DNA of 48,935 nt from Bacillota bacterium (GTDB taxonomy: Bacteria > Bacillota > Clostridia > Acetivibrionales > JAMNYG01), in assembly GCA_023622945.1 (NCBI GenBank), contig JAMNYG010000145.1, positions 1 to 48,935 on the forward strand, written 5' to 3'. Positions 7,358 through 35,895 of the stretch are shown here, piece by piece; position 1 is the first letter of the stretch; each line of letters begins with the position of its first letter. The position numbers were made by a program, and so were the translations under genes. A model generated the notes under the pieces. It was given only the letters and a program-made list of their open reading frames with translations. It searched no databases and was not told the origin of the DNA.

Positions 7358-8665
7358 TTACCGGGATTTACCGGTATTTAAGGTTCTTGCCTGATTGCCG
7401 GCTGTCTTGCCTGGATTTGAAATTCTGATCTGACCTCCCCTGCTCTGTGTGCCGGTTTTATCATAGCTGTTATTGTTTTTGTCATTTTTGCCTTTAACGT
7501 CTTTATAGCTTTTATTGTCGTTTTTATTGCCTTTGTTATTTTTATCATATTTATTGTTATAATCTTTGTCGACTTTATTTCCTTTATTGTCTTTATCATC
7601 TTTATTGCCCTTACTGCTTCTGCTGTAATCACCCCTGCTGTTTTTGACGTATTTTTTGTCCCTGTCATCATTGTTCTTCTTTTCTTTCCGCTTCTCATCA
7701 TTATCTGTTTTATCCTTGCCGTTGCTGTTAATTGCAGTTTTCCAGGTATTTTTACCGTTGCTTTTGCTTATTTCTTTCCTTTCGCCTTTATCTTCCTCCT
7801 TATGGTTTTTGTTTTTATTCTCATTTTTCTTGTTATCTTTCTTATCCGCTTTCTTTGCTTCCTTACCTGCTACTTTCGGGTCTTTTCCTTCGTTCCCGGC
7901 ATTTTTCCTGTTAAAAGCGGTAAAAGCCACATTCTTGCCGCCTTTTTCAGCATCTTTTATGGATTTCATTATCTCTTCCATGGAGCGGTCCTTTATATCA
8001 TCAATCTTAACTTCAGGTTTCGCTTCCCTAAGTTTGTTGATAAGAAGCATTTTTGCCGGAGAAATTCCCTGTTCCATGGCATCATTGTGCTGCGAAGTCT
8101 GAAGCTTTTCCACCACCAGTTCGGTCTCGCTCTCCACTTTTTGAAGTTTCTGCTCTGCCGTGGTTTTTATTTCCTTTTGAATCCTCTCCACCGTCTGTTG
8201 GTTTTTCCCGGACAGGGCAAATACCACGGTGTTGGTCGGGCTGTTACTCAGGTAACCCTGCTCGTAGGCTGCTTGAAGTATAATTTCTACGCTTTCCCTT
8301 ATGGTTTTGTTCTTGTAGCTTTGGAGGGACAGCAGTCTGTTGCCTTCCTCATTCAATCCCTTTGCATCTATAATCCTGTTGTATATGTTTGCCGTAAACT
8401 CAATGCTGGGGTTGATGTAAACATTTATATAGCTGTACGGTATGTTGTAGCTGTAAGCCCCTGCTCCTATTCCCATTACCAGAAGGAATGCAGCTGCGAT
8501 TGAAAGCTTTTTCATGGCAGCAGCTCTGCAAAGCCAGGCTTTGCCGGGTATATCTATTTCACATCCCACTTCATAATGGGCTTTATTCCTTAATTTGATA
8601 AACTCACCCTTTTGACTCAGAGCTACTGCATGATTACCGACAATATCAACTATGACCGCTTTCAT
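7358..8665 (-). CDS. rsgI: RsgI-family anti-sigma-I factor with a long low-complexity extracellular tail
   Basis: A 435-residue single-pass membrane protein that would hold SigI inactive at the membrane. The cytosolic N-terminus (MKAVIVDIVGNHAVALSQKG) is the RsgI N domain; one membrane helix spans about 55-73; the extracellular part has the conserved INPSIEF motif (Asn85-Pro86), where studied RsgI proteins cleave themselves. Residues about 255-415 are almost entirely Lys, Asn, Asp and Gly. Cellulolytic clostridia often carry a CBM or hydrolase sensor here; none is seen. The second ATG (8665) is chosen: it overlaps the sigI stop as ATGA and has a G-rich ribosome site 6 nt upstream. Confidence 0.88.
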   Translation of the reverse strand: MKAVIVDIVGNHAVALSQKGEFIKLRNKAHYEVGCEIDIPGKAWLCRAAAMKKLSIAAAFLLVMGIGAGAYSYNIPYSYINVYINPSIEFTANIYNRIIDAKGLNEEGNRLLSLQSYKNKTIRESVEIILQAAYEQGYLSNSPTNTVVFALSGKNQQTVERIQKEIKTTAEQKLQKVESETELVVEKLQTSQHNDAMEQGISPAKMLLINKLREAKPEVKIDDIKDRSMEEIMKSIKDAEKGGKNVAFTAFNRKNAGNEGKDPKVAGKEAKKADKKDNKKNENKNKNHKEEDKGERKEISKSNGKNTWKTAINSNGKDKTDNDEKRKEKKNNDDRDKKYVKNSRGDYSRSSKGNKDDKDNKGNKVDKDYNNKYDKNNKGNKNDNKSYKDVKGKNDKNNNSYDKTGTQSRGGQIRISNPGKTAGNQARTLNTGKSR

Positions 8666-9375
8666 CTGCATCCCCCCCAATCTACATATTCTCTGATGTA
8701 CCTGTAATCTCCTGTAACTATGGTTATCACAGTTATTATATATTTTCGCGCCCTCTCCAGAGTTTTTCGAGGCACACCTGTATTCCTCTCAATTTCAGCC
8801 ATCGGAAGATATCTTTTGCTCTTGATTTCATCTATAAGATCCGGCCTTGACAGCAAAAACCTTATTGCTTTACCATATGCCTTTCTGGTTCGGTCGTGTT
8901 TGGGAGAAACCTTTACAAGTTCCATAAAGGTGATCCCCCAAAGGCCCAACTCTTCTTTAAGCTCCTGTATCTCCAGCCTCCTGTATTCATTAAGCATGTC
9001 GTCGGAATACTTTTGAATGGATTTGTTTATGCTAAGGTCTTTTTCTTCGCTTTCATCGCTTCCGTAATAATCGGTTAATGGAACAACCTTTCCGTGTTTT
9101 TTCTCTTTCCTGTAATAATCAATCACACGTCTTTTGATAACATTCCGGGCAAAGGAAAGAAAATTGCCCCTGAAGATATTGTACGACTTTACAGCCTCCA
9201 CAAAGGCAATAAGCCCGATGCTGAGCTCATCATCTTCACCGTAATTTACATAGCGGCCTGCAACCCTTTCAACGCATGAAGCAATAAAAGGCTTGTATTC
9301 TTCAACAAGCTTGTTTATTTCTTCCTCGTTATCTTTAATTTTTTTTACTCTTTCGTTAATGGCAAAAAATTGCAT
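8662..9375 (-). CDS. sigI: RNA polymerase sigma factor SigI
   Basis: A 237-residue sigma-70-family factor. The region-2-like part has DELSIGLIAFVEAVKSYN and FLSFARNVIKRRVIDYYRK, and a C-terminal helix-turn-helix (LPMAEIERNTGVPRKTLERA) replaces a standard region 4, as in the SigI family. Homologues in cellulolytic clostridia switch on cellulosome and hydrolase genes when the RsgI partner senses polysaccharide. It is the first gene of the sigI-rsgI pair, with a 4 bp stop/start overlap that couples translation. GGAGG lies 5 nt before the ATG. A SigI-type promoter upstream suggests positive autoregulation. Confidence 0.93.
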   Translation of the reverse strand: MQFFAINERVKKIKDNEEEINKLVEEYKPFIASCVERVAGRYVNYGEDDELSIGLIAFVEAVKSYNIFRGNFLSFARNVIKRRVIDYYRKEKKHGKVVPLTDYYGSDESEEKDLSINKSIQKYSDDMLNEYRRLEIQELKEELGLWGITFMELVKVSPKHDRTRKAYGKAIRFLLSRPDLIDEIKSKRYLPMAEIERNTGVPRKTLERARKYIITVITIVTGDYRYIREYVDWGGCR

Positions 9376-9504: not shown

Positions 9505-9792
9505 TATTTTATGCCTGAAGATAAAATTAATGGGTTGAATCAGCACAGGATGGCGGAAGCGATATACAGGAGTAACAGTCCCTTCACCAGGAAACCGGTC
9601 CAAAGTTTGCTCCAATGTTATTCCGTAGCATATCGTTTCCTGACAGCCAACACAACGCGCAAAATCAGTTTCTAAATAAAGCATTAATTTGCCGGCAAAG
9701 ACGTGTATGATAAAAACAGGTAATAATACGGTTTTGCATCGAAAAATCACGTGACAAGGCTGCAAAGAATTTATCGAAATGGAGGAATGGGT
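9505..9792 (+). repeat. Intergenic region with a degenerate copy of the dispersed repeat (about 9536-9610)
   Basis: The stretch GATATACAGGAGTAACAG, then TCCCTTCACCAGGAAACCGG, matches the left part of the repeats at 20415 and 48690. The hairpin half (GGGGACACTTCT) is missing, so this is an old or truncated copy. The rest, up to the mttB ribosome site, shows no gene; no convincing promoter was found for mttB. Confidence 0.5.
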
Positions 9793-11298
9793 ATGGGTAA
9801 GGCAAGCGGGCTGATTAAATTTTTGAGCCAGGAGGAAATGGAAAAACTTCACCTCAGTGCGCTTCGTATACTTGAAGAAGTGGGAATGATGATCGATCAT
9901 CCCGAAGCGCTTGACTACCTTGAAAAAAGCGGATGCATTGTTGACAGAAACACCAACCTGGTGAAATTCCCTCAAAAAGTTGTGGAAAATGCTGTGAATA
10001 AAATGCGTAAGGACTATACCCTTACAGACCGCAGCGGTATAGTGCCTCCCATGAGATATACGGAAATGTATCTTACCACTATACCAAAAGGCATAAGGCA
10101 TGATTTCACGGTAAATGCAGGCGGATTTCCTTCATATGTACTGGACCTGGACGGAAAAAGACGCCCCGCTACAATGCAGGATGTAATAGATTCCATAAGG
10201 CTTGCGGATGCACTGGAGAATATTGATTTAATCGGGCTTCCCTGTTCCGCGCAGGAAATCCCTCCCCGTATGAGGCCTGTTGTGATGACGGCCGTGTTGA
10301 TAAAAAACACTTCCAAGCCGGGAGGCATCGAAGCCTGGGATAAAACAGACATAAAATACATAACCGAAATGGCCCTGGTGCTGCGCGGAGGCATGAAAGA
10401 ATTAAAAAAGAAGCCTTTCCTCATCGGTTACGGAGAAGTCAGAAGCCCCTTATGCATGGATTACAATATGTGCGATGTCTTCATTGAATATGTAAAAATG
10501 GGCTTGCCCCAGAGCTTTGATACCATGCCCGGTGCAGGTTCCACGGCACCTGCATCAACGGCAGGCACCCTGGCCCTGGGGCTGGCTGAAACCCTCTTCG
10601 GACTGGTGCTGGGATATGCTATCGATGAGAATGCATGGGTCAGCATTGACATGAATCCAAGCCTGACTGATATGAGAACCATGGTATTCCCATATGCGGG
10701 AGCTGACAGAATACCCATGATAGCAGCTGCCAACCAGATGTTGAGGGATTATTACGGGAGACCCGGAGGGTGCCATGCATGTAAAACCGATGCCTGCCAC
10801 CCCGGGGTTCAGGCAGGTTTTGAGAAAGCCCTCACCACCATTTTCCCTGTATTGACCGGTGCAACCGGTGTCGGTACACTGGGTCAGCTTGAAGGCGGAG
10901 TTACTTTTTCCTTTGTGCAGCTGGTAATAGATAATGAAATAATAGGTTATATAAAACGGGCTCTCAGGGGATTTGAAGTAAACGATGACACCCTGGCACT
11001 GGACGTGATAAAGGAAGTGGGACCGGGAGGAAACTTCATTCAGCATGAGCACACCGCTATGAACTTCAGAAAGGAATTCTACCTGTCAGACCTTTTGGAA
11101 AGGATGCCCTGGTCCTTATGGGAAAGCCAGGATATTAAAGGACTTGAAGAAAAAGCCAGGGAAAAAGCCAGAAAAATCTTAAGGGAACACAATCCGAAAC
11201 CTCTTTCGGAGGATAAGGTAAAGGAAATAGATGCCATTGTCAGAAGGGCGTACAGGGAAATAGGAAAATCTGAGCAGCACTTTTTGTATTTTTTTTAG
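9793..11298 (+). CDS. Trimethylamine methyltransferase (MttB) family protein, non-pyrrolysine type
   Basis: A 501-residue TIM-barrel methyltransferase of the MttB superfamily. Members move a methyl group from a quaternary or tertiary amine (trimethylamine, glycine betaine, carnitine, proline betaine) to a corrinoid protein. Family landmarks include AGGFPSYVLDLDGKRRPAT, MPGAGSTAPASTAGTLAL and VQAGFEKALT. The frame is read through without any TAG. Where true trimethylamine methyltransferases carry pyrrolysine, the sequence is CHACKTDAC (residues 327-335), with Lys331 at the apparent position. The substrate is unknown. No corrinoid protein or reactivase gene lies next to it. The ATG at 9793 follows GGAGG by 7 nt. 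Confidence 0.85.
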   Translation: MGKASGLIKFLSQEEMEKLHLSALRILEEVGMMIDHPEALDYLEKSGCIVDRNTNLVKFPQKVVENAVNKMRKDYTLTDRSGIVPPMRYTEMYLTTIPKGIRHDFTVNAGGFPSYVLDLDGKRRPATMQDVIDSIRLADALENIDLIGLPCSAQEIPPRMRPVVMTAVLIKNTSKPGGIEAWDKTDIKYITEMALVLRGGMKELKKKPFLIGYGEVRSPLCMDYNMCDVFIEYVKMGLPQSFDTMPGAGSTAPASTAGTLALGLAETLFGLVLGYAIDENAWVSIDMNPSLTDMRTMVFPYAGADRIPMIAAANQMLRDYYGRPGGCHACKTDACHPGVQAGFEKALTTIFPVLTGATGVGTLGQLEGGVTFSFVQLVIDNEIIGYIKRALRGFEVNDDTLALDVIKEVGPGGNFIQHEHTAMNFRKEFYLSDLLERMPWSLWESQDIKGLEEKAREKARKILREHNPKPLSEDKVKEIDAIVRRAYREIGKSEQHFLYFF

Positions 11299-11537: not shown

Positions 11538-13454
11538 ATGAAAAAAAGAGTTGTAATTATCGGAGCCGGCTATGCCGGAATTGAAGCTGCCCTCACCCTC
11601 AATAAGGCAAGACGGAAAAATGATCTTGAAATCACGCTCATAGACAAGAACAGCTACCATACCCTTCTTACGGAGCTCCATGAAGTAGCCGGGAACCGCG
11701 TTTCTGAGGAAGCGGTAATCATTCCTCTCAACCGGATATTTAAGTTTACCGGTGTCAATGTTGTATGTGACGAAATTACATCCTTTGATTTCGAAAACAA
11801 TACCGTTTCATCGGAAACCCGCCAGTACAGTTATGACTATCTCATACTGGCCATGGGAAGCACTCCCAATTTCTTCGATGTTCCGGGATTAAAGGAACAC
11901 ACCTTCACCCTCTGGTCACTGGAAGATGCCATAAAAATCAGGGAACATATCAGGAAGTGCTTCATTATGGCTTCCCAGGAGAAGGATGAGGATAAACGCA
12001 GGCAGCTTCTGACATTTACAGTGGGCGGAGCAGGATATACAGGCGTGGAAATGATAGGTGAACTGGCCCACTGGAGCAAGGATCTTGCAAGGGAATATGG
12101 AATTGACCGAAAAGAAGTTCGCCTGATTATTGTCGATATGCTTCCGCGGATTTTAAGCACCCTTGATGAGAAAAATTCCCGCATTGCCCATAGATACATG
12201 GAGAAAAAGCTTGGAATTGAAATAATGCTCAACACACCTATAAAAGAAGTCACGGCAGAAGGTTTTTATGCCGGCGATGTCTTTGTCAAAACCAAAACTC
12301 TCATTTGGGCTGCCGGAGTCCGGGCTTCCAGAGATGTGGACAAAATGGACATAGAAAAGGCAGGCCGTACCAAGAGGCTAACTGTCGACCAGTATTGCAG
12401 GACACAATATGAAAATGTCTATGCCGTAGGCGACATCAGCGCACTTTTGGACAGCGACGGCCATCCTTATCCTGCCATGGTGGAAACGGCACTTCAGACC
12501 GCCCATGGTGCGGCTAAGAATATAATAAACTCAATTAACAACAGGCAACCGGAAAAGGTGGAAGTTAAACTGCATGGCACCATGGTCAGCGTGGGCAACT
12601 ACTTTACCGTATCTGAAATCATGGGAAGGATACTCCCCGTATGGCTTTCCATGATTATGAAATATCTGGTCAATGCGCACTATCTCTGGGAAATCACAGG
12701 TTTCTGGGGAGTTGCAAGGTATTTTTATCATGAAGTGCTTGAACGACGTCAAAGGAAGCTGTTCCTTGAAAAGCATTGGTCAACCAGGATTCAGACCTGG
12801 TGGCTTACACCTTTAAGAGTCTTCCTGGGCATAATATGGCTCATTGAAGGCGTAAACAAGGTAAAGGAAGGATGGCTTATATCACCCAAACTGGCATCTT
12901 TCCTGGGCTATGCTACCGATACCGCTTCCTCGGCAACGTCTTCAGGAGCATTTGTCACAAGATTGGACGATGTATTTAAGCTGAATCTTGGTATAGTAAA
13001 TTTCCTGATCGGAAACGAGAGCAGAATGGTGGAGGGTTCGGTTATTTCATCCCAGCTTTTCGCAAAGCTTGACATACTGCGCATAGGAAATTTCAACCTG
13101 GTTCCGTGGTTCCTTGAGAATATTGTACTTGCCAATGATGCAGTATCCATGTTCTTCCAGGTGTTGGTGGTAATATTGGAAATCGGCATAGGTCTCATGC
13201 TGATAGGTGGTGCTTTCACCTTCATAGGGTCGGTAATATCTGTAGGGCTTATGATGATGTTCCTTACCTCAACAGGGGTCTACGAAAAAACATGGTGGAT
13301 GCTGCCGGCTTCCATTGCCACCATGGGAGGAGCCGGACGGGCATTTGGACTTGATTATTACATCGTTCCCTACCTCAACAATGTATGGGAATACTTCTGG
13401 AAAAACAGGAAGCTAAGGCTGTTTTTCAAAGGCAGCTTAACCAGACCCGAATAG
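11538..13454 (+). CDS. ndh2: Type II NADH dehydrogenase with C-terminal membrane domain
   Basis: A 638-residue flavoprotein. Residues 1 to about 400 form an NDH-2/disulfide-reductase fold: GAGYAG at 9-14 binds FAD, GGAGYTG at 163-169 binds NAD(P)H, and the FAD-binding VYAVGDIS lies near residue 295. About 200 further residues add several membrane helices (from about 430) that look DoxX-like. Ordinary NDH-2 enzymes have about 400 residues. The longer form is that of the Ndh2 devoted to extracellular electron transfer in Listeria, which passes electrons from NADH to a membrane quinone. The next genes (lipoprotein, ApbE) fit that setting. Start: ATG after GGTGGGAG. Confidence 0.85.
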   Translation: MKKRVVIIGAGYAGIEAALTLNKARRKNDLEITLIDKNSYHTLLTELHEVAGNRVSEEAVIIPLNRIFKFTGVNVVCDEITSFDFENNTVSSETRQYSYDYLILAMGSTPNFFDVPGLKEHTFTLWSLEDAIKIREHIRKCFIMASQEKDEDKRRQLLTFTVGGAGYTGVEMIGELAHWSKDLAREYGIDRKEVRLIIVDMLPRILSTLDEKNSRIAHRYMEKKLGIEIMLNTPIKEVTAEGFYAGDVFVKTKTLIWAAGVRASRDVDKMDIEKAGRTKRLTVDQYCRTQYENVYAVGDISALLDSDGHPYPAMVETALQTAHGAAKNIINSINNRQPEKVEVKLHGTMVSVGNYFTVSEIMGRILPVWLSMIMKYLVNAHYLWEITGFWGVARYFYHEVLERRQRKLFLEKHWSTRIQTWWLTPLRVFLGIIWLIEGVNKVKEGWLISPKLASFLGYATDTASSATSSGAFVTRLDDVFKLNLGIVNFLIGNESRMVEGSVISSQLFAKLDILRIGNFNLVPWFLENIVLANDAVSMFFQVLVVILEIGIGLMLIGGAFTFIGSVISVGLMMMFLTSTGVYEKTWWMLPASIATMGGAGRAFGLDYYIVPYLNNVWEYFWKNRKLRLFFKGSLTRPE

Positions 13455-13537
13455 TTTACCTCGGCAAGTTCAATCTGTATTTAGTAATCCTTAAACAAGG
13501 ATTTACAGTATAAAATTCAATAGGAGGAGAATTAGTG

Positions 13538-14071
13538 ATGAAAAAAATAATTGCTGTTACTCTATGCATTCTTCTGCTGGCAGGTTGCGGTGCTACGGCA
13601 TCAGTTAAAACCGGTTTGGGGCACACCACCTCCATTAAAAAGTCAACCGATGCAACAGCTGACAAAGAAGGGATCGCTCAAGTAGATACAGTTATGGCTG
13701 CAGTAACTTTTGACTCAAACGGAAAGATTCTTAAAGTGACAATTGACTCGGCTCAGACGCGGGTCAACTTCGATGCGTCAGGTAAAATTACAAGCGATCT
13801 CGACGCGCCTCAAGAAACAAAGGTCGAGCTCGGCGCACGCTACGGCATGATTAAGAATTCATCCATCGGCAGAGAATGGTATGAGCAGATTGCCGAGCTG
13901 GAAAAGTGGATGATAGGCAAAACCGTTGACCAGGTTAAGGCCATGAAGGTTAAGGAGGTTGACGAAAACCACAAGAACGTGCCCGACGAGCCGGATCTGA
14001 CATCCAAAGTAACAATTACGGTTGAGGATTACATTTTCGCAGTTGAAGAAGCTTTCAAGAACGCAAAATAA
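13538..14071 (+). CDS. PplA-like lipoprotein, candidate flavin carrier
   Basis: A 177-residue lipoprotein: signal peptide with lipobox LLAGC (Cys near residue 18), a linker, then one globular domain with VMAAVTFDSNGKILKVTIDS, ELGARYGMIKNSSIGREWYE and ATIVGKT-like MIGKTVDQVKAM. From memory this domain recurs in lipoproteins of the Listeria PplA type encoded next to long Ndh2 proteins. Those are modified by ApbE-type enzymes and act as flavin electron carriers outside the membrane. No canonical S/T-G-A-T flavin attachment motif is visible here, so flavinylation is open. AGGAGG lies 10 nt before the ATG; a GTG one codon earlier (13535) is equally possible. Confidence 0.72.
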   Translation: MKKIIAVTLCILLLAGCGATASVKTGLGHTTSIKKSTDATADKEGIAQVDTVMAAVTFDSNGKILKVTIDSAQTRVNFDASGKITSDLDAPQETKVELGARYGMIKNSSIGREWYEQIAELEKWMIGKTVDQVKAMKVKEVDENHKNVPDEPDLTSKVTITVEDYIFAVEEAFKNAK

Positions 14072-14105
14072 ATCCTTATCAAAAAAGTAATCGACTTACA
14101 TGATT

Positions 14106-14134
14106 AAACCCCCTGCTTTTTCGGGGGTTTTTTT
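14106..14134 (+). terminator. Rho-independent terminator after the lipoprotein gene
   Basis: AAACCCCC and GGGGGTTT pair across a 9 nt loop and are followed by a run of seven T. It lies between the lipoprotein gene and apbE. The latter therefore needs read-through or its own promoter, and the lipoprotein may be made in excess. Confidence 0.85.
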
Positions 14135-14179
14135 AACTCCTTTAGATGCCGGGCAATCATTGCAATGAGGTGATTTTAA

Positions 14180-15301
14180 TTGAAACCTGTTACAGGAAGC
14201 TTCCTGAAACCTGATTTAACAAGTTTGAAATCAGTCACAGCCATTATTATAGCCGTTCTTGTCGCGCTATCCGGCTGTACCTCCAAAAACAGCGGTTACA
14301 GAAAATACAGCTATGAATTTTTCGGTACCTTTGATACCATGGTCCAGGTTATGGGATACGCAAAGGACGAAAATCAGTTTGAAGAAATGGCCATGAAAGT
14401 ACAGTCCAGATTTGAAGAGCTGAACAAGCTTTTCGATATATATAACGATTATGAGGATATTAACAACATAAAAACCATTAATGATAATGCCGGGATAAGA
14501 CCTGTTGAGGTAAGGCAGGAAATAATAGATCTGATATTGTTTTCCATGGACTGGTATGAAAAAACCGGAGGCGTGGTCAACATCGCCTTAGGTCCCGTAC
14601 TTTCCATATGGCATCAGTACCGCGAAGAAGGTAAAGCCAATCCCTCCTCCGCTCGCTTACCTGAACGTAAACTACTGTTAGATGCAGCAAAGAAGACGGA
14701 TATCACAAAAATAGAAGTGGACACCTCAAAAAATACCGTATTTCTTAAGGAACCCGGAATGAGCCTCGATGTCGGAGCCGTGGCTAAAGGATTTGCAACC
14801 GAAATTGTTGCAGGGGAACTGGTTGAAGCAGGGTATACCTCCTTTATTATTAACAGCGGCGGCAATGTGCGGGTGGTTGGAGAGCCCAGGGACGGCGTTC
14901 GTAAAAAATGGGGCATCGGTTTGCAGGACCCCGATGCCAATCCAGATCCCTACAGAGATGAGTATTTTGATGTTGTTTATGTTACGGATGCATCGGTGGT
15001 TACCAGTGGCGACTACCAAAGATATTATGTTGTGGACGGTCAAAGGATACACCACCTGATAGACCCTGAAACATTAATGCCTGCCCGCTATTACAGGGCA
15101 GTGACGGTTTTGACAGAGGATTCAGCAATTGCCGACTTTCTTTCCACAGCGGCATTTATTCTTCCGTATGAAAAAAGCCGCCGGCTCATAGAAAGCCTGG
15201 ACGGCGTCGAAGCGCTCTGGGTTATGCCTGATGGCAGCATAAAGGCTACAGACGGCATGGTCACCGTATCAAGAAATCTTGGCAACGCATCAGGCAAGTG
15301 A
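14180..15301 (+). CDS. apbE: ApbE-family FAD:protein FMN transferase, lipoprotein
   Basis: A 373-residue exported enzyme that attaches FMN from FAD to Ser/Thr of target proteins outside the membrane. The N-terminus has a signal with lipobox ALSGC. Family motifs are all present: FFGTFDTMVQVMGY, LDVGAVAKGFATE, INSGGNVRVVG, TSGDYQRYY and HHLIDPETLMPA, with the metal-binding Asp/Thr near AIADFLSTAAF. The start is TTG at 14180, supported by GAGGTG 7 nt upstream and the signal peptide that follows. Likely substrates in the window are RnfG and RnfD, and possibly the neighbouring lipoprotein. Confidence 0.92.
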   Translation: MKPVTGSFLKPDLTSLKSVTAIIIAVLVALSGCTSKNSGYRKYSYEFFGTFDTMVQVMGYAKDENQFEEMAMKVQSRFEELNKLFDIYNDYEDINNIKTINDNAGIRPVEVRQEIIDLILFSMDWYEKTGGVVNIALGPVLSIWHQYREEGKANPSSARLPERKLLLDAAKKTDITKIEVDTSKNTVFLKEPGMSLDVGAVAKGFATEIVAGELVEAGYTSFIINSGGNVRVVGEPRDGVRKKWGIGLQDPDANPDPYRDEYFDVVYVTDASVVTSGDYQRYYVVDGQRIHHLIDPETLMPARYYRAVTVLTEDSAIADFLSTAAFILPYEKSRRLIESLDGVEALWVMPDGSIKATDGMVTVSRNLGNASGK

Positions 15302-15404
15302 GGCTGAAGCTTTAGAAGGCCTTGCCTGATGTATGAAGAGTTTGCCTGATTTATGGATAATACAGGTACGGACAGCACAGGTGAAAACTGAATGGGGGGG
15401 TAGC

Positions 15405-15770
15405 ATGAAAACGGTTTTTAAAAGGCTTATCAACATAAAAATGGATAAGGGATGGATGTGGCTTTTATATCTCGATATACTCCTTCCGTCTGTTCTGTTC
15501 TTCCTTGCCCTTGCGGCGGGCAGGTTGGGGAAAGGTGGTCCGTTTTCTGCCCTTTTTCATTCATACAATCTTTATATTATAAATCCCATCCCTAATTTCA
15601 ACAGCTTTACAGGTATACCCGGACTGGGTATCCATATAGGAGCCGTGGCATATGCGCTGAAAAGGAAAGACCGTAAGGATATGGTGCTCTGCCTGGCTTT
15701 TCTTATACTGGCTTTTATATATAACTACTTTGAGATTAACTATATGCTTTCATATATGCTGGATTTCTGA
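15405..15770 (+). CDS. Small membrane protein of unknown function
   Basis: A 121-residue protein not recognised as a known family. Three membrane helices are visible (about 19-40, 70-87 and 93-115), joined by a loop rich in Asn, Pro and Gly (NLYIINPIPNFNSFTGIPG). No metal or flavin motif was seen. It follows apbE in the same direction, with a G-rich ribosome site (GGGGGGG) 4 nt before the ATG. Position suggests a role with the Ndh2/ApbE set, such as a membrane partner, but this is only inferred from the context. Confidence 0.65.
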   Translation: MKTVFKRLINIKMDKGWMWLLYLDILLPSVLFFLALAAGRLGKGGPFSALFHSYNLYIINPIPNFNSFTGIPGLGIHIGAVAYALKRKDRKDMVLCLAFLILAFIYNYFEINYMLSYMLDF

Positions 15771-16337: not shown

Positions 16338-18281
16338 TCAGACATCAAGTGCTGTTGGTGATTTTTCCTTCAGTACATACTGCTGCAGGCAAACAAGTGC
16401 TATAACCACGATTCCTGCCATATCGGTCATAAGATTTGGATCGATCATGCAAAGTCCTCCTGCTACGCACAAAATCCTCTGCCACCACATCAGTTTCCTT
16501 TTCATGAAGCCTTCCAGGCCTGCTGAAATGGCAAACATCCCGATCAAAGAGGTGATTGCTATCTGAACGACCTGTAAAGGAGAAGCATTGATCAGAAGCA
16601 TGGAAGGATTCAGCACAAACATGTACGGAATGATAAACGCGGCGATTGCCAGCCTGGTAGCAATAACTCCCGCTCTGAGAGGATTGCCTCCCGATATGGC
16701 GGAACCTGCATAGGCAGCCAGCGCCACCGGCGGTGTTATATCCGCCACTATGCCAAAGTAGAAGACAAACATGTGAGCGGCAAGTACAGGAGTTTCAGGT
16801 ATAAGCTTTAATATGATAGGCGCTGTAATGGTGGCCATAATAACGTAATTTGCAGTTGTAGGCACACCCATTCCCAATATGATGCATGCTATCATGGTCA
16901 AAAACAATGCAATGATATCTATACCCCCGGACAGCATAAGAAGGCCGTCAGCAAGCTTAAGTCCGATTCCGGTCAGTGAAACTATGCCTACTATTATCCC
17001 TGCTATGGCGCATGCAGCCGCAACACCAATGGTGTTTTTGGCCCCGGTTTCCATGGCTTCAACAAATGCTTTTGGTGTCAAACGGGTATCCTTACGGAAC
17101 ATGCTGACTATGATGGCAGCCAATATGGCAAGGCAGGCAGCACGGGAAGTGGTATAACCAATGGACATGGTCACTACGAGAACAATTATGGGTATGAACA
17201 GGTAGCCCTTGGTAAACAACAGCTTAAAGAAGCTGGGCAGTGTTTCCCTGGGAAGCCCCTTTAACCCCAGTTTCTTTGCTTCAAAATGCACCATCATAAA
17301 AATCCCTGAGAAATACAGCACTGCAGGCAATATAGCTGCGACTGCAATGAGGGAATATGGAGTTTCAGTCATTTCAGCCATGAGAAATGCCGCAGCACCC
17401 ATAATGGGAGGCATTATCTGTCCCCCTGTGGAAGCCGCTGCCTCCACGGCTGCCGCGAAGTCCTTATCATATCCTGTTTTTTTCATGATGGGAATGGTGA
17501 CGCTTCCTGAACCGACGGTATTGGCAACCGAGCTGCCTGAATACATCCCTTCAAGAGCACTGGAAATAACGGCAACCTTGGCAGGTCCTCCGCTGGCAAA
17601 ACCGGCAACCGAGTTGGCTATATCTATAAAAAATGTGCCAATGTTGGTTTTTTCCAGGAAAGCCCCTAAAATGATAAACAATACGATAAAAGTGGAGCAC
17701 ACTCCTATAGGAGTTCCGATTACGCCGTCAAGGGTGTAAAACAATGTGTAAACAATCCTGTTCAGGGAATATCCTGCGGCAAAGGCATAAATGACAAAAG
17801 CCGAAGCCACAACCAGTATGGGAATACCCACAACTCTTCTGCATACCTCTGCAATAATCAATATCCCAATGGCGCCCACAATGATATCAAACCTGGATAC
17901 ACGGGTAGCCTTCTGGGCCAGGCTGGAAAAATTCAAGGTATAGTAGAAGAAACAAGCGGTACCTGCAACTCCGAGAACAATGTCATACCAGGGTACATAG
18001 TTTATATTCTTTGCAGATTTTTTTCTCGCAGGATAGAGCATGAAGGCCATAAAGATGATCAAGCCTACAAAGGATGTCCTGCGTATCTGTTCCGGCCAGG
18101 CGCTTATAAGGTTCATGTAAAATACGTATACTGAAAATCCTGCCAGCATATAGCGCACTATTTCTCTTGGTACTCCTTTATAATGCCTTGTATTGGATTC
18201 ACGATCAAATTCAGCCATTACTTCATCAATATTTACCTGTTCAATATCACCCACCGGGGTTTTAATTGTGGGTTCAGACAT
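16338..18281 (-). CDS. TRAP transporter fused 4TM/12TM permease (TAXI type)
   Basis: A 647-residue integral membrane protein with both TRAP permease parts in one chain: an N-terminal small-subunit-like region and the long DctM-type part. It works with the TAXI binding protein encoded just upstream, using an ion gradient to import an organic acid or amino acid; the substrate is unknown. Typical segments are GMYSGSSVANTVGSGSVTIP, GGQIMPPIMGAAAFLMAEMT, GMGVPTTANYVIMATITAP and DITPPVALAAYAGSAI. An ATG at 18281 with GGAGG 7 nt upstream is preferred over a TTG at 18287. Confidence 0.92.
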   Translation of the reverse strand: MSEPTIKTPVGDIEQVNIDEVMAEFDRESNTRHYKGVPREIVRYMLAGFSVYVFYMNLISAWPEQIRRTSFVGLIIFMAFMLYPARKKSAKNINYVPWYDIVLGVAGTACFFYYTLNFSSLAQKATRVSRFDIIVGAIGILIIAEVCRRVVGIPILVVASAFVIYAFAAGYSLNRIVYTLFYTLDGVIGTPIGVCSTFIVLFIILGAFLEKTNIGTFFIDIANSVAGFASGGPAKVAVISSALEGMYSGSSVANTVGSGSVTIPIMKKTGYDKDFAAAVEAAASTGGQIMPPIMGAAAFLMAEMTETPYSLIAVAAILPAVLYFSGIFMMVHFEAKKLGLKGLPRETLPSFFKLLFTKGYLFIPIIVLVVTMSIGYTTSRAACLAILAAIIVSMFRKDTRLTPKAFVEAMETGAKNTIGVAAACAIAGIIVGIVSLTGIGLKLADGLLMLSGGIDIIALFLTMIACIILGMGVPTTANYVIMATITAPIILKLIPETPVLAAHMFVFYFGIVADITPPVALAAYAGSAISGGNPLRAGVIATRLAIAAFIIPYMFVLNPSMLLINASPLQVVQIAITSLIGMFAISAGLEGFMKRKLMWWQRILCVAGGLCMIDPNLMTDMAGIVVIALVCLQQYVLKEKSPTALDV

Positions 18282-18579
18282 CAGCAAACCTCCTTTGGTG
18301 ACTAATTTATGATATTTGCTCAGGATTGAAAATCAAAAACCAGGTGACAAGCAATGTTATAACGACTTATTTTATGATACCTGTTCAAGGCTAAAAAATC
18401 AAAACTCGAATAACATACGACATTCTTGAAATATTTTTAAGATATTTTAAGATATTTCTAATATATTTAAAAAAGTGCAAATCATGTCCTGAATTAGAAA
18501 ACTTAATTATACCTCTTTGATTTCATAAATTTATTTATATCTCTATGATTTCATAGATTTAAATTATGGCTCTATGACT
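18282..18579. other. AT-rich intergenic region with short degenerate repeats
   Basis: There is no gene. At about 18511-18580 three imperfect copies of a unit like CTCTATGATTTCATAGATTT occur. The region separates the DUF1850 gene from the permease gene, so the two may not always be co-transcribed. Confidence 0.4.
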
Positions 18580-19080
18580 TCAGCATAGTCCATAAAATAT
18601 CACAAAAAGCTTCGGCCTGCAAGTAAATTTCACGGTGGCATTCCGGCCGCACAGCTCACGCAGGCTGACTTTTTCACCGCCAATTTCAAGAACATGGTCA
18701 GAAACGGTACCTACGATATAGGACAGGTTTTGCATCTCCCGTTCAAACCCGCTGATGATCATGGAACCGTCTTCACCGTATTCAAGGGTCTGTCCTTCTT
18801 CTATCTGTGTCTGTACCCCGGCGCCGAATGAATAATAGATGGTTTTTATTACAAAAATACCATAGCCCCGGATCTCGTATATGTCTGTTACCGGAGTGTT
18901 ATTGACCGAATGAATAAATGTTATGGAAAAACCATCTCCGTCTTTCACAGGATAAGCAGCTATAATCTTTCCTGTATCGCCGTTCCGCAATATGAGGTAA
19001 GGATCAAAAAGGATATTATAAACAAAAACGGAGGTAGCGATTATGACCACAATCGCGGCCCCCGTTATGAATCGCTTCAT
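18580..19080 (-). CDS. DUF1850 protein, TAXI-TRAP accessory
   Basis: A 166-residue protein with one N-terminal membrane helix or uncleaved signal (about residues 5-23) and a small beta-rich outer domain. The sequence FSITFIHSVNNTPVTDIYEI is the hallmark of DUF1850. This family is found almost only beside TAXI-type TRAP transporters; its exact role is unknown. The ATG at 19080 is 7 bp after the TAXI gene stop and has a weak ribosome site, so translation is probably coupled to the upstream gene. Confidence 0.82.
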   Translation of the reverse strand: MKRFITGAAIVVIIATSVFVYNILFDPYLILRNGDTGKIIAAYPVKDGDGFSITFIHSVNNTPVTDIYEIRGYGIFVIKTIYYSFGAGVQTQIEEGQTLEYGEDGSMIISGFEREMQNLSYIVGTVSDHVLEIGGEKVSLRELCGRNATVKFTCRPKLFVIFYGLC

Positions 19081-19087
19081 TGCAACT

Positions 19088-20035
19088 TCAGAGAAGACCA
19101 AGCTCTTTATAATATTTCATCGCCCCTGGATGCAAGGGAATAGAAATACTGGATACCGAATAAGCAGGATCAAGTTCAGCTCCTTTCGGATGGGCTTTTT
19201 TAATCTCTTCGGCATTTTCAAAAAGGGCCTTGGTCATTTTGTACACCAGATCTTCGCTAAGATCATCCGAAACAATGAAGGTAGCAACAACTGCCACGGT
19301 CTGCACGTCCTTGTCCAGACCCTTATAAGTTCCGGCAGGAACATTATACTTGGTATAGAAAGGATAGTTCTGGCTAAGCTTTTCGGCATGCTCGTCGTCT
19401 ATTTCCAGCAGCTTAATGTTATTTGTAGTGGCAAGCTCTACGATGGCTGTTGTAGGAGCACCTGCAACGCAGAAAAACGCATCTATCTTGTCGTCCTTAA
19501 GTGCTGTGGCACTGTCATTAAAGCTCAGGTTGTTAACCACGATATCGTCAAAAGTCATGCCGTATGCTTCAAGTATCTGGCGTGCATTGAATTCGCAGCC
19601 CGAACCGATATCTCCTACCGAAACACGCTTTCCTCTCAAATCTTCGATAGAGTTGATATCGCTTTTACTTACAATCTGTACCACTTCAGCATAGCAGCCG
19701 GCCATAGCGGAAAAACCTGTGACCACTTCACCGTTAAAAAGGTCTATTCCTTTATGGGCGTAATACATAACATCGTTCTGAACTATGGCTATATCTGCTT
19801 CTTTATCGGCAACAAGATAAATATTCGCTTTGGAAGCCCCTGTAGACTGAACATCAAAGTTTAAATTATTGATTTTCTGGGAAAGTACCTGAGAAACAGC
19901 GCCGCCGAAAGCGTAATATGTACCTGTTGTACCTCCTGTCGCCATCTTCAGAGTTGTTTTCCCGCCGCATCCTGAAAACATCATGGCAATAGCCACCAGA
20001 ATGGTAAGACAGATGATTAATCTTTTCCTTTTCAA
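19088..20035 (-). CDS. TAXI-family TRAP transporter solute-binding lipoprotein
   Basis: A 315-residue periplasmic-binding-type protein anchored as a lipoprotein (lipobox FSGC). It has the TAXI features KMATGGTTGTYYAFGGAVSQ, VQSTGASKANIYLVADKEAD and DIGSGCEFNARQILEAYG. It delivers a substrate to the fused permease downstream; glutamate or other small organic acids are typical for the family, but the ligand cannot be read from sequence. The start is a TTG at 20035 with a GGGGGGG ribosome site 8 nt upstream. Confidence 0.92.
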   Translation of the reverse strand: MKRKRLIICLTILVAIAMMFSGCGGKTTLKMATGGTTGTYYAFGGAVSQVLSQKINNLNFDVQSTGASKANIYLVADKEADIAIVQNDVMYYAHKGIDLFNGEVVTGFSAMAGCYAEVVQIVSKSDINSIEDLRGKRVSVGDIGSGCEFNARQILEAYGMTFDDIVVNNLSFNDSATALKDDKIDAFFCVAGAPTTAIVELATTNNIKLLEIDDEHAEKLSQNYPFYTKYNVPAGTYKGLDKDVQTVAVVATFIVSDDLSEDLVYKMTKALFENAEEIKKAHPKGAELDPAYSVSSISIPLHPGAMKYYKELGLL

Positions 20036-34941: not shown

Positions 34942-35895
34942 TCACGCAACTTTCTTTTCACCTCCGAAGCTCCTGGGAATCGTGAAACGGTCTATCAGAG
35001 GAGTGGCAACATTCATCAGAAGAATGGAGAATGAAACTCCTTCAGGATAGCTGGCATAAAGCCTTATTACCGCCGTTATCAGACCGCAGCCTATACCCAT
35101 TATCAGTCTGCCTTTCCTGGTAACAGGAGAAGAGGAATAATCAGTAGCCATAAAAAAGGCTCCCAGTATAAGGCCTCCCGAAAGGACGTGGTATACAAAG
35201 TCACCGCTGAATATCCGGTCTCCACCGAAAATAAAGGTTATCAAAGCAACCGTTCCGATAAACGCCGCCGGGATCTCAACGGTAATAACCCTGCGGTATA
35301 TAAGATAAGCAGCTCCTATCAGAAGGGCAAGTTTGGATGTTTCTCCTATACATCCTGCCACATTTCCAATAAAGAGGTCCAAATATCCCGGAAGGGTTCC
35401 TTCAGCAGCTTCCATGCCACCCTTTATCAATGCAAGGGGAGTGGCAGTGGAAACAGTATCAGGAAAGGTCCACCTGGTCATCTGTACCGGCCAGGATACC
35501 GTAAGGAAAACCCTGGCAGCCAGCGCCGGGTTCATAAAATTCTGGCCTATTCCGCCGAACAACTGCTTAACTATCACAATGGCCACAACCCCGCCTACGG
35601 CAGCAATCCACAGCGGAATTTCAGGGGGCAGGTTCATGCCCAGCAGCATACCGGTAACAACAGCGCTGAGATCCGATATGGTTATATTTCTTTTCAGTAC
35701 TCTGCAGTAAACATACTCAGATGCCACGCAGGTAAAAACCGTGGTTACCAGCACCAATAAAGCCCTGAATCCGAAAAACCAGACACCTGCGGCCGCAGCA
35801 GGTATCAAGGCTATAATCACATCCAGCATTATCCGGCTTGTGCTGTCCTTATCCCTCAGATGAGGGGAGGATGACATTATCAACGTATTCTCCAA
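34942..35895 (-). CDS. rnfD: Rnf complex FMN-carrying membrane subunit RnfD
   Basis: A 317-residue membrane protein of the NqrB/RnfD family with about nine or ten helices. The covalent FMN site appears as DTVSTATPLALIK, where the Thr before PLAL is the expected attachment residue. GGIGQNFMNPALAARVFL and FGGDRIFSGDFVYHVLSGG are also typical. The start is TTG at 35895 with GGGAGGT 7 nt upstream, 1 bp after the rnfC stop. Confidence 0.95.
   Translation of the reverse strand: MENTLIMSSSPHLRDKDSTSRIMLDVIIALIPAAAAGVWFFGFRALLVLVTTVFTCVASEYVYCRVLKRNITISDLSAVVTGMLLGMNLPPEIPLWIAAVGGVVAIVIVKQLFGGIGQNFMNPALAARVFLTVSWPVQMTRWTFPDTVSTATPLALIKGGMEAAEGTLPGYLDLFIGNVAGCIGETSKLALLIGAAYLIYRRVITVEIPAAFIGTVALITFIFGGDRIFSGDFVYHVLSGGLILGAFFMATDYSSSPVTRKGRLIMGIGCGLITAVIRLYASYPEGVSFSILLMNVATPLIDRFTIPRSFGGEKKVA

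Follow-up and report, generated by a model that had tools for sequence, protein, structure and literature searches.

Gene order of the locus

The window (the whole stretch of DNA that was analysed, 48,935 nucleotides) contains the following features, which were read from the open reading frames unless stated otherwise:

11538..13454, plus strand: ndh2, 638 aa; type II NADH dehydrogenase in residues ~1-392, with a membrane extension in ~408-638
13535..14071, plus strand: lipoprotein with one FMN-bind2-like domain; a putative FMN carrier with Thr160 in DLTSKVT as putative acceptor
~14008..14017, plus strand: predicted variant flavinylation site, the codons of S-K-V-T (residues 157-160), with coordinates computed from the lipoprotein frame
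14110..14127, plus strand: terminator-like hairpin followed by a T-run, between the lipoprotein gene and apbE, from a consensus scan only
14180..15301, plus strand: apbE, 373 aa; an exported lipoprotein FAD:protein FMN transferase
15333..15770, plus strand: small membrane protein with three helices; 121 aa from its probable start, ATG 15405

The first-pass annotation had placed a long Ndh2 ahead of a lipoprotein, an exported ApbE and a small membrane protein, all on the plus strand; the open reading frames bear this order out, with two starts in need of trimming. Translation of the lipoprotein probably begins at ATG 13538, just downstream of an AGGAGG, which yields a protein of 177 aa with the lipobox LLAGC and agrees with its relatives, while close relatives of the small membrane protein are 113-128 aa long and fit a start at ATG 15405. 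Judged by its sequence, the hairpin could serve to keep lipoprotein expression above that of ApbE.

Ndh2 and ApbE

Ndh2 matched the Pfam family Pyr_redox_2 with 152 bits and its residues 2-392 matched solved NDH-2 structures, whereas the C-terminus is weakly similar to the MauE/DoxD/DoxX families and falls short of a match (MauE 26.5 bits, Pfam cut-off 27). The published operational definition of extracellular electron transfer (EET) is an NDH-2 with a transmembrane helix within a flavinylation-associated gene cluster (PMC8238504), and the cluster in the window contains such an NDH-2, as is characteristic of Gram-positive flavin-based EET. Since relatives also carry a full EET set around the same lipoprotein, the earlier assignment of these genes to an EET-type module stands. 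Residues 315-320 of Ndh2 (window positions 12480-12510) cover a quinone motif that reads V-E-[NTA]-x-x-Q in EET-type proteins and A-Q-x-A-x-Q in respiratory NDH-2. All 35 EET-type Ndh2 homologues compared have E where canonical AQxAxQ has its first Q, and the same E occurs in the Ndh2 that adjoins a TGAT-type PplA relative in another Clostridia genome (L135).

ApbE matched PF02424 with 226 bits, bears the lipobox LSGC as read from its sequence, and is the only ApbE that a profile search found in its own genome. It aligns with Listeria FmnB (chain 7esa_A, 135 bits) such that Ser276, His292 and Asp319 fall on Ser257, His273 and Asp301, the catalytic triad of FmnB (PMC8906456, PMC12052999). An exported ApbE/FmnB with a catalytic Ser-His-Asp, as is looked for in an EET system, is hence encoded at the locus.

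A system split over two loci

The first-pass annotation had taken the module for a reduced version of the Listeria system, and this did not hold. In the host genome (2.67 Mb, 86% complete), a profile search found eetA, eetB and a polyprenyl synthase gene adjacent and in this order on contig C136 (EetA, PF07009, 114 bits; EetB, PF07456, 166 bits; polyprenyl synthase, PF00348, 240 bits). Rather than being reduced, the system is therefore divided between two loci. Of the genes that the same annotation had noted as lacking from the window, eetA and eetB are present on C136; of those for demethylmenaquinone synthesis, the polyprenyl synthase was found and UbiA was not, in a genome that is 86% complete.

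Of 58 genomes from the same order, 25 contain homologues of the lipoprotein, and the genes recurring around these were ndh2, polyprenyl synthase, UbiA, NusG_II-like EetA, PF07456-type EetB and apbE, with UbiA often part of the EET cluster. In the closest relatives, eetA-eetB-ndh2-polyprenyl synthase-lipoprotein-apbE-small membrane protein form a single run. Lipoproteins with a single domain had EET genes within 6 ORFs upstream in all 22 loci with readable upstream context, which amount to ~17 distinct loci once duplicate contigs and one partly masked tandem copy are subtracted. Such constancy of gene order far exceeds what chance would give. Across the whole family, apbE is the next gene downstream of the lipoprotein gene in 82 of 95 loci, the rest being partly contig ends.

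Lipoproteins with tandem domains showed a different pattern: apbE adjoins 60 of the 70, but EET genes are nearby in only 14. Taken together, these counts indicate that the family is a general partner of ApbE and that its single-domain form is tied to EET in this sample. They also bear on an alternative in which lipoprotein and ApbE are a general envelope redox or FMN-carrier pair that reaches no external acceptors, with ndh2 as a neighbour for ordinary NADH recycling. The 56 of 70 tandem relatives that sit beside apbE without EET genes nearby speak for it and imply that the lipoprotein family has other uses; nevertheless, the constant EET context of the single-domain form and the retention of eetA and eetB in the host's own genome make this alternative unlikely for the locus studied here. 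The 56 relatives (among loci L063-L130), which include Paenibacillus, Alkaliphilus and Anaerosolibacter, have no obvious membrane electron donor nearby either.

A probable flavin domain of another type than in PplA

The lipoprotein had been described as PplA-like, which could not be upheld: the NCBIfam PplA model NF041941 matched neither any protein of the host's own genome nor the lipoprotein and five tandem relatives, the canonical flavinylation motif is missing, and a different type of flavin domain occupies the same position. FMN_bind (PF04205) scored 13.3 bits in the genome search and 12.4 bits with the protein alone, below the gathering cut-off of 22 bits. What the lipoprotein shares with PplA is its position, its presumed role, its nature as a surface lipoprotein and a distant domain relationship, while the domain measures ~155 residues instead of the ~115 of PplA and lacks [ST]GA[ST]. 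A search of the class with NF041941 found PplA-like proteins with TGAT or SGAT sites in other Clostridia, one of them adjoining an Ndh2; this is the two-domain TGAT relative in L135, whose neighbouring Ndh2 has the same C-terminal extension, and it confirms that one type of lipoprotein can stand in for the other.

Homologous domains were found in 95 ORFs, with 1, 2 or 4 copies per protein. Very probably they are of the published FMN-bind2 type, to which they were likened by size, repeats and apbE neighbourhood. In that study, FMN-bind2 domains are ~160 aa long, longer than FMN_bind1, and associated with apbE (Huang et al., 2024, PMC11334425), and the relatives described here likewise have 2 or 4 repeats; the lipoprotein itself differs in being single-copy, as even numbers are given there as typical. 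As read here, that paper gives no motif for FMN-bind2.

A distant link to FMN_bind was nevertheless detected. The hhalign score with 2KZX, itself a member of PF04205, was 38.5, compared to at most 22.2 in 200 shuffles and 11.8 for the reversed sequence, and the motif-bearing tails align. An apparent match of the lipoprotein family to PplA-type domains (hhalign, E 1.8e-7) was inflated by signal peptides and discarded, as trimming brought it to 18.6 against 18.8 for shuffles; the FMN_bind relationship consequently rests on the 2KZX link. An AlphaFold2 model of the lipoprotein (pLDDT 91.5) places the SKVT site just before the C-terminal helix, where the flavinylation site of NqrC also lies (PMC8238504). 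As Foldseek found no significant match for this model in the PDB, membership of the fold is suggested by sequence comparison. A protein of Sedimentibacter hydroxybenzoicus (L087:6585-8942), encoded beside apbE, joins a canonical FMN_bind domain (AGAT) to four FMN-bind2-like domains (S-[ST]-V-T) and is a natural construct with both motifs in one protein.

A putative variant flavinylation site

The canonical ApbE site is D-x-x-[ST]-G-A-[ST] (PMC12052999). In its place, the lipoprotein family has a near-invariant [DE]-L-x-S-x-V-T, which reads DLTSKVT in the protein studied here. Over 167 domains, the V column holds V in 163 and the T column holds T in 165, with Ser in the other 2, and Thr160 is the sole invariant Thr among 60 diverse domains. 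In a model substrate, changing G to A or A to V each cut flavinylation to about half (PMC12052999). I found no description of flavinylation at S-x-V-T in the literature examined, and both points weigh against a modification here.

The window also encodes two Rnf subunits with flavinylation sites: RnfG has the canonical DAISGAT, and in RnfD (34942-35895, minus strand), STAT stands where SGAT would be expected. Going by these sites, the same ApbE must presumably serve RnfG and RnfD as well. It could be argued that it serves nothing else, and that the lipoprotein is never flavinylated and keeps the variant motif as a structural remnant; the single ApbE of the genome, the canonical site of RnfG and the missing G-A of the lipoprotein would all be in keeping with this. 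However, a role confined to Rnf sits poorly with the placement of apbE directly behind the lipoprotein gene in most of the family and with the near-invariance of Thr160, and the STAT of RnfD gives a hint of some tolerance at the G position. Such a restriction of ApbE to Rnf is decidedly unlikely, and Thr160 is preferred as the putative FMN acceptor.

The small membrane protein and the supply of quinone

As a partner, the small membrane protein is confined to one lineage: it was found in 9 of 391 genomes of the class, all of which except the host's own belong to a single genus, and in each of the nine it directly follows lipoprotein-apbE. Set beside cytochromes of the DUF4405/FezC type, it has two invariant His but matched no Pfam family, and a Foldseek search of the PDB yielded nothing significant. 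Conserved among eleven aligned homologues are His76 and His101 (window numbering), an Asp of the first helix and Asn-Tyr near the end. As a best guess, it may provide a docking point on the outer side of the membrane for the lipoprotein or for quinol; a role as heme relay is less likely. In close relatives (L054, 10146-10886, with equivalents in L058, L059 and L065), the small membrane protein is followed by a protein of the metallo-beta-lactamase fold (Lactamase_B_3), which is not the case in the window.

UbiA (PF01040) gave no match in the 86%-complete host genome but turned up in each of 19 further genomes; most simply, its absence reflects an assembly gap and, less probably, a true loss. 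MenD (PF16582) and MqnA/D (PF02621) were absent from all 12 genomes searched, with positive controls; the 12 were the host's own and 11 others, ten with the EET locus seen and two with PplA-like proteins. The first-pass annotation had made its reading depend in part on some quinone pathway in the genome, and the outcome is divided, as the polyprenyl synthase is there whereas UbiA, MenD and MqnA/D were not found. With no de novo head-group pathway in the 12 genomes, import of a naphthoquinone is likely, and by analogy with Lactiplantibacillus plantarum it is probably neighbouring organisms that supply the head group. EET with exogenous quinones has a precedent in that species, which like the host combines EET genes with an incomplete quinone pathway and differs in having PplA and prenylation genes, UbiA of the host not being found in an incomplete genome (PMC10746273).

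The lack of UbiA, MenD and MqnA/D matches in the own genome could alternatively point to a quinone-free variant, in which the small membrane protein, with its two invariant His and perhaps heme, would relay electrons from Ndh2 to the lipoprotein. Conservation of His76 and His101 would suit such a relay, and small membrane cytochromes go with flavinylation elsewhere (PMC10979944). Against this, no fold or family match suggests heme binding, the positive-inside rule would put both His towards the outer side, and the genome is only 86% complete. EET without quinone is further weakened because a UbiA homologue is present wherever else the small membrane protein occurs, i.e. in all eight of the class survey and in G049, and this variant is regarded as extremely improbable. 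Very unlikely, too, is a lineage-wide form of EET without membrane quinone, in which electrons would pass from Ndh2 to a cofactor on the two His of the small membrane protein and on to a single-FMN lipoprotein modified by ApbE at a new code, [DE]-L-x-S-x-V-T.

Proposed electron path and comparison with Listeria

The preferred reading, which I hold with a probability of roughly 80%, is EET of the kind known from Gram-positive bacteria, with the locus as one of the two halves of a flavin-based system of the Listeria type. Ndh2 would oxidise NADH at the inner face and reduce a membrane naphthoquinone; the quinol would then pass electrons to the surface lipoprotein carrying one covalent FMN, and from there to an extracellular acceptor. 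ApbE would attach the FMN at Thr160 of DLTSKVT, drawing on FAD whose export EetB assists; the gene for EetB lies elsewhere, together with those for EetA and the polyprenyl synthase. The FMN-bind2-type lipoprotein would occupy the place of Listeria PplA, with the small membrane protein as an accessory that perhaps docks the lipoprotein or quinol.

In Listeria monocytogenes, the EET locus comprises Ndh2, PplA, FmnB, FmnA, EetA, EetB, DmkA and DmkB. FmnA is the ECF-T subunit of the FAD exporter, and ECF-T subunits are widespread. Both organisms have a long Ndh2 with membrane extension, an exported ApbE, an exported lipoprotein, EetA, EetB and a polyprenyl synthase. The host differs in using two loci instead of one, in its extra small membrane protein, in having one FMN-bind2-like domain with S-x-V-T where Listeria PplA has two FMN_bind domains, and in having no head-group synthesis, with UbiA not found in its incomplete genome. 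The system is best regarded as a real variant of a known EET system rather than a new one, in a fermenting Clostridia-type bacterium. What is new is the combination: a single-domain FMN-bind2-like lipoprotein whose site lacks G-A takes the position of PplA, a membrane partner specific to the lineage is added, and the locus is split in a host without head-group synthesis.

If this reading is correct, the EET machinery would be modular, with the same core of Ndh2, EetA, EetB and ApbE served by unrelated-looking flavolipoproteins. ApbE would accept a site without G-A, and surveys by Pfam FMN_bind or by [ST]GA[ST] would miss a class of substrates. Polymer-fermenting Clostridia that do not synthesise quinones may then dump electrons outside via the quinones of their neighbours.

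Flanking genes

Directly upstream of ndh2 lies a gene for an MTTB-family methyltransferase (9751-11298, plus strand, 257 bits), which by this reading is not of the pyrrolysine type, as its ORF has no in-frame stop. A SigI-type sigma factor (8662-9375, minus strand) scored 313 bits, above the NF006178 cut-off. Convergent with the EET genes, the minus strand encodes a TRAP transporter fused permease, a DUF1850 protein and a TAXI-family binding protein (16338-20035).
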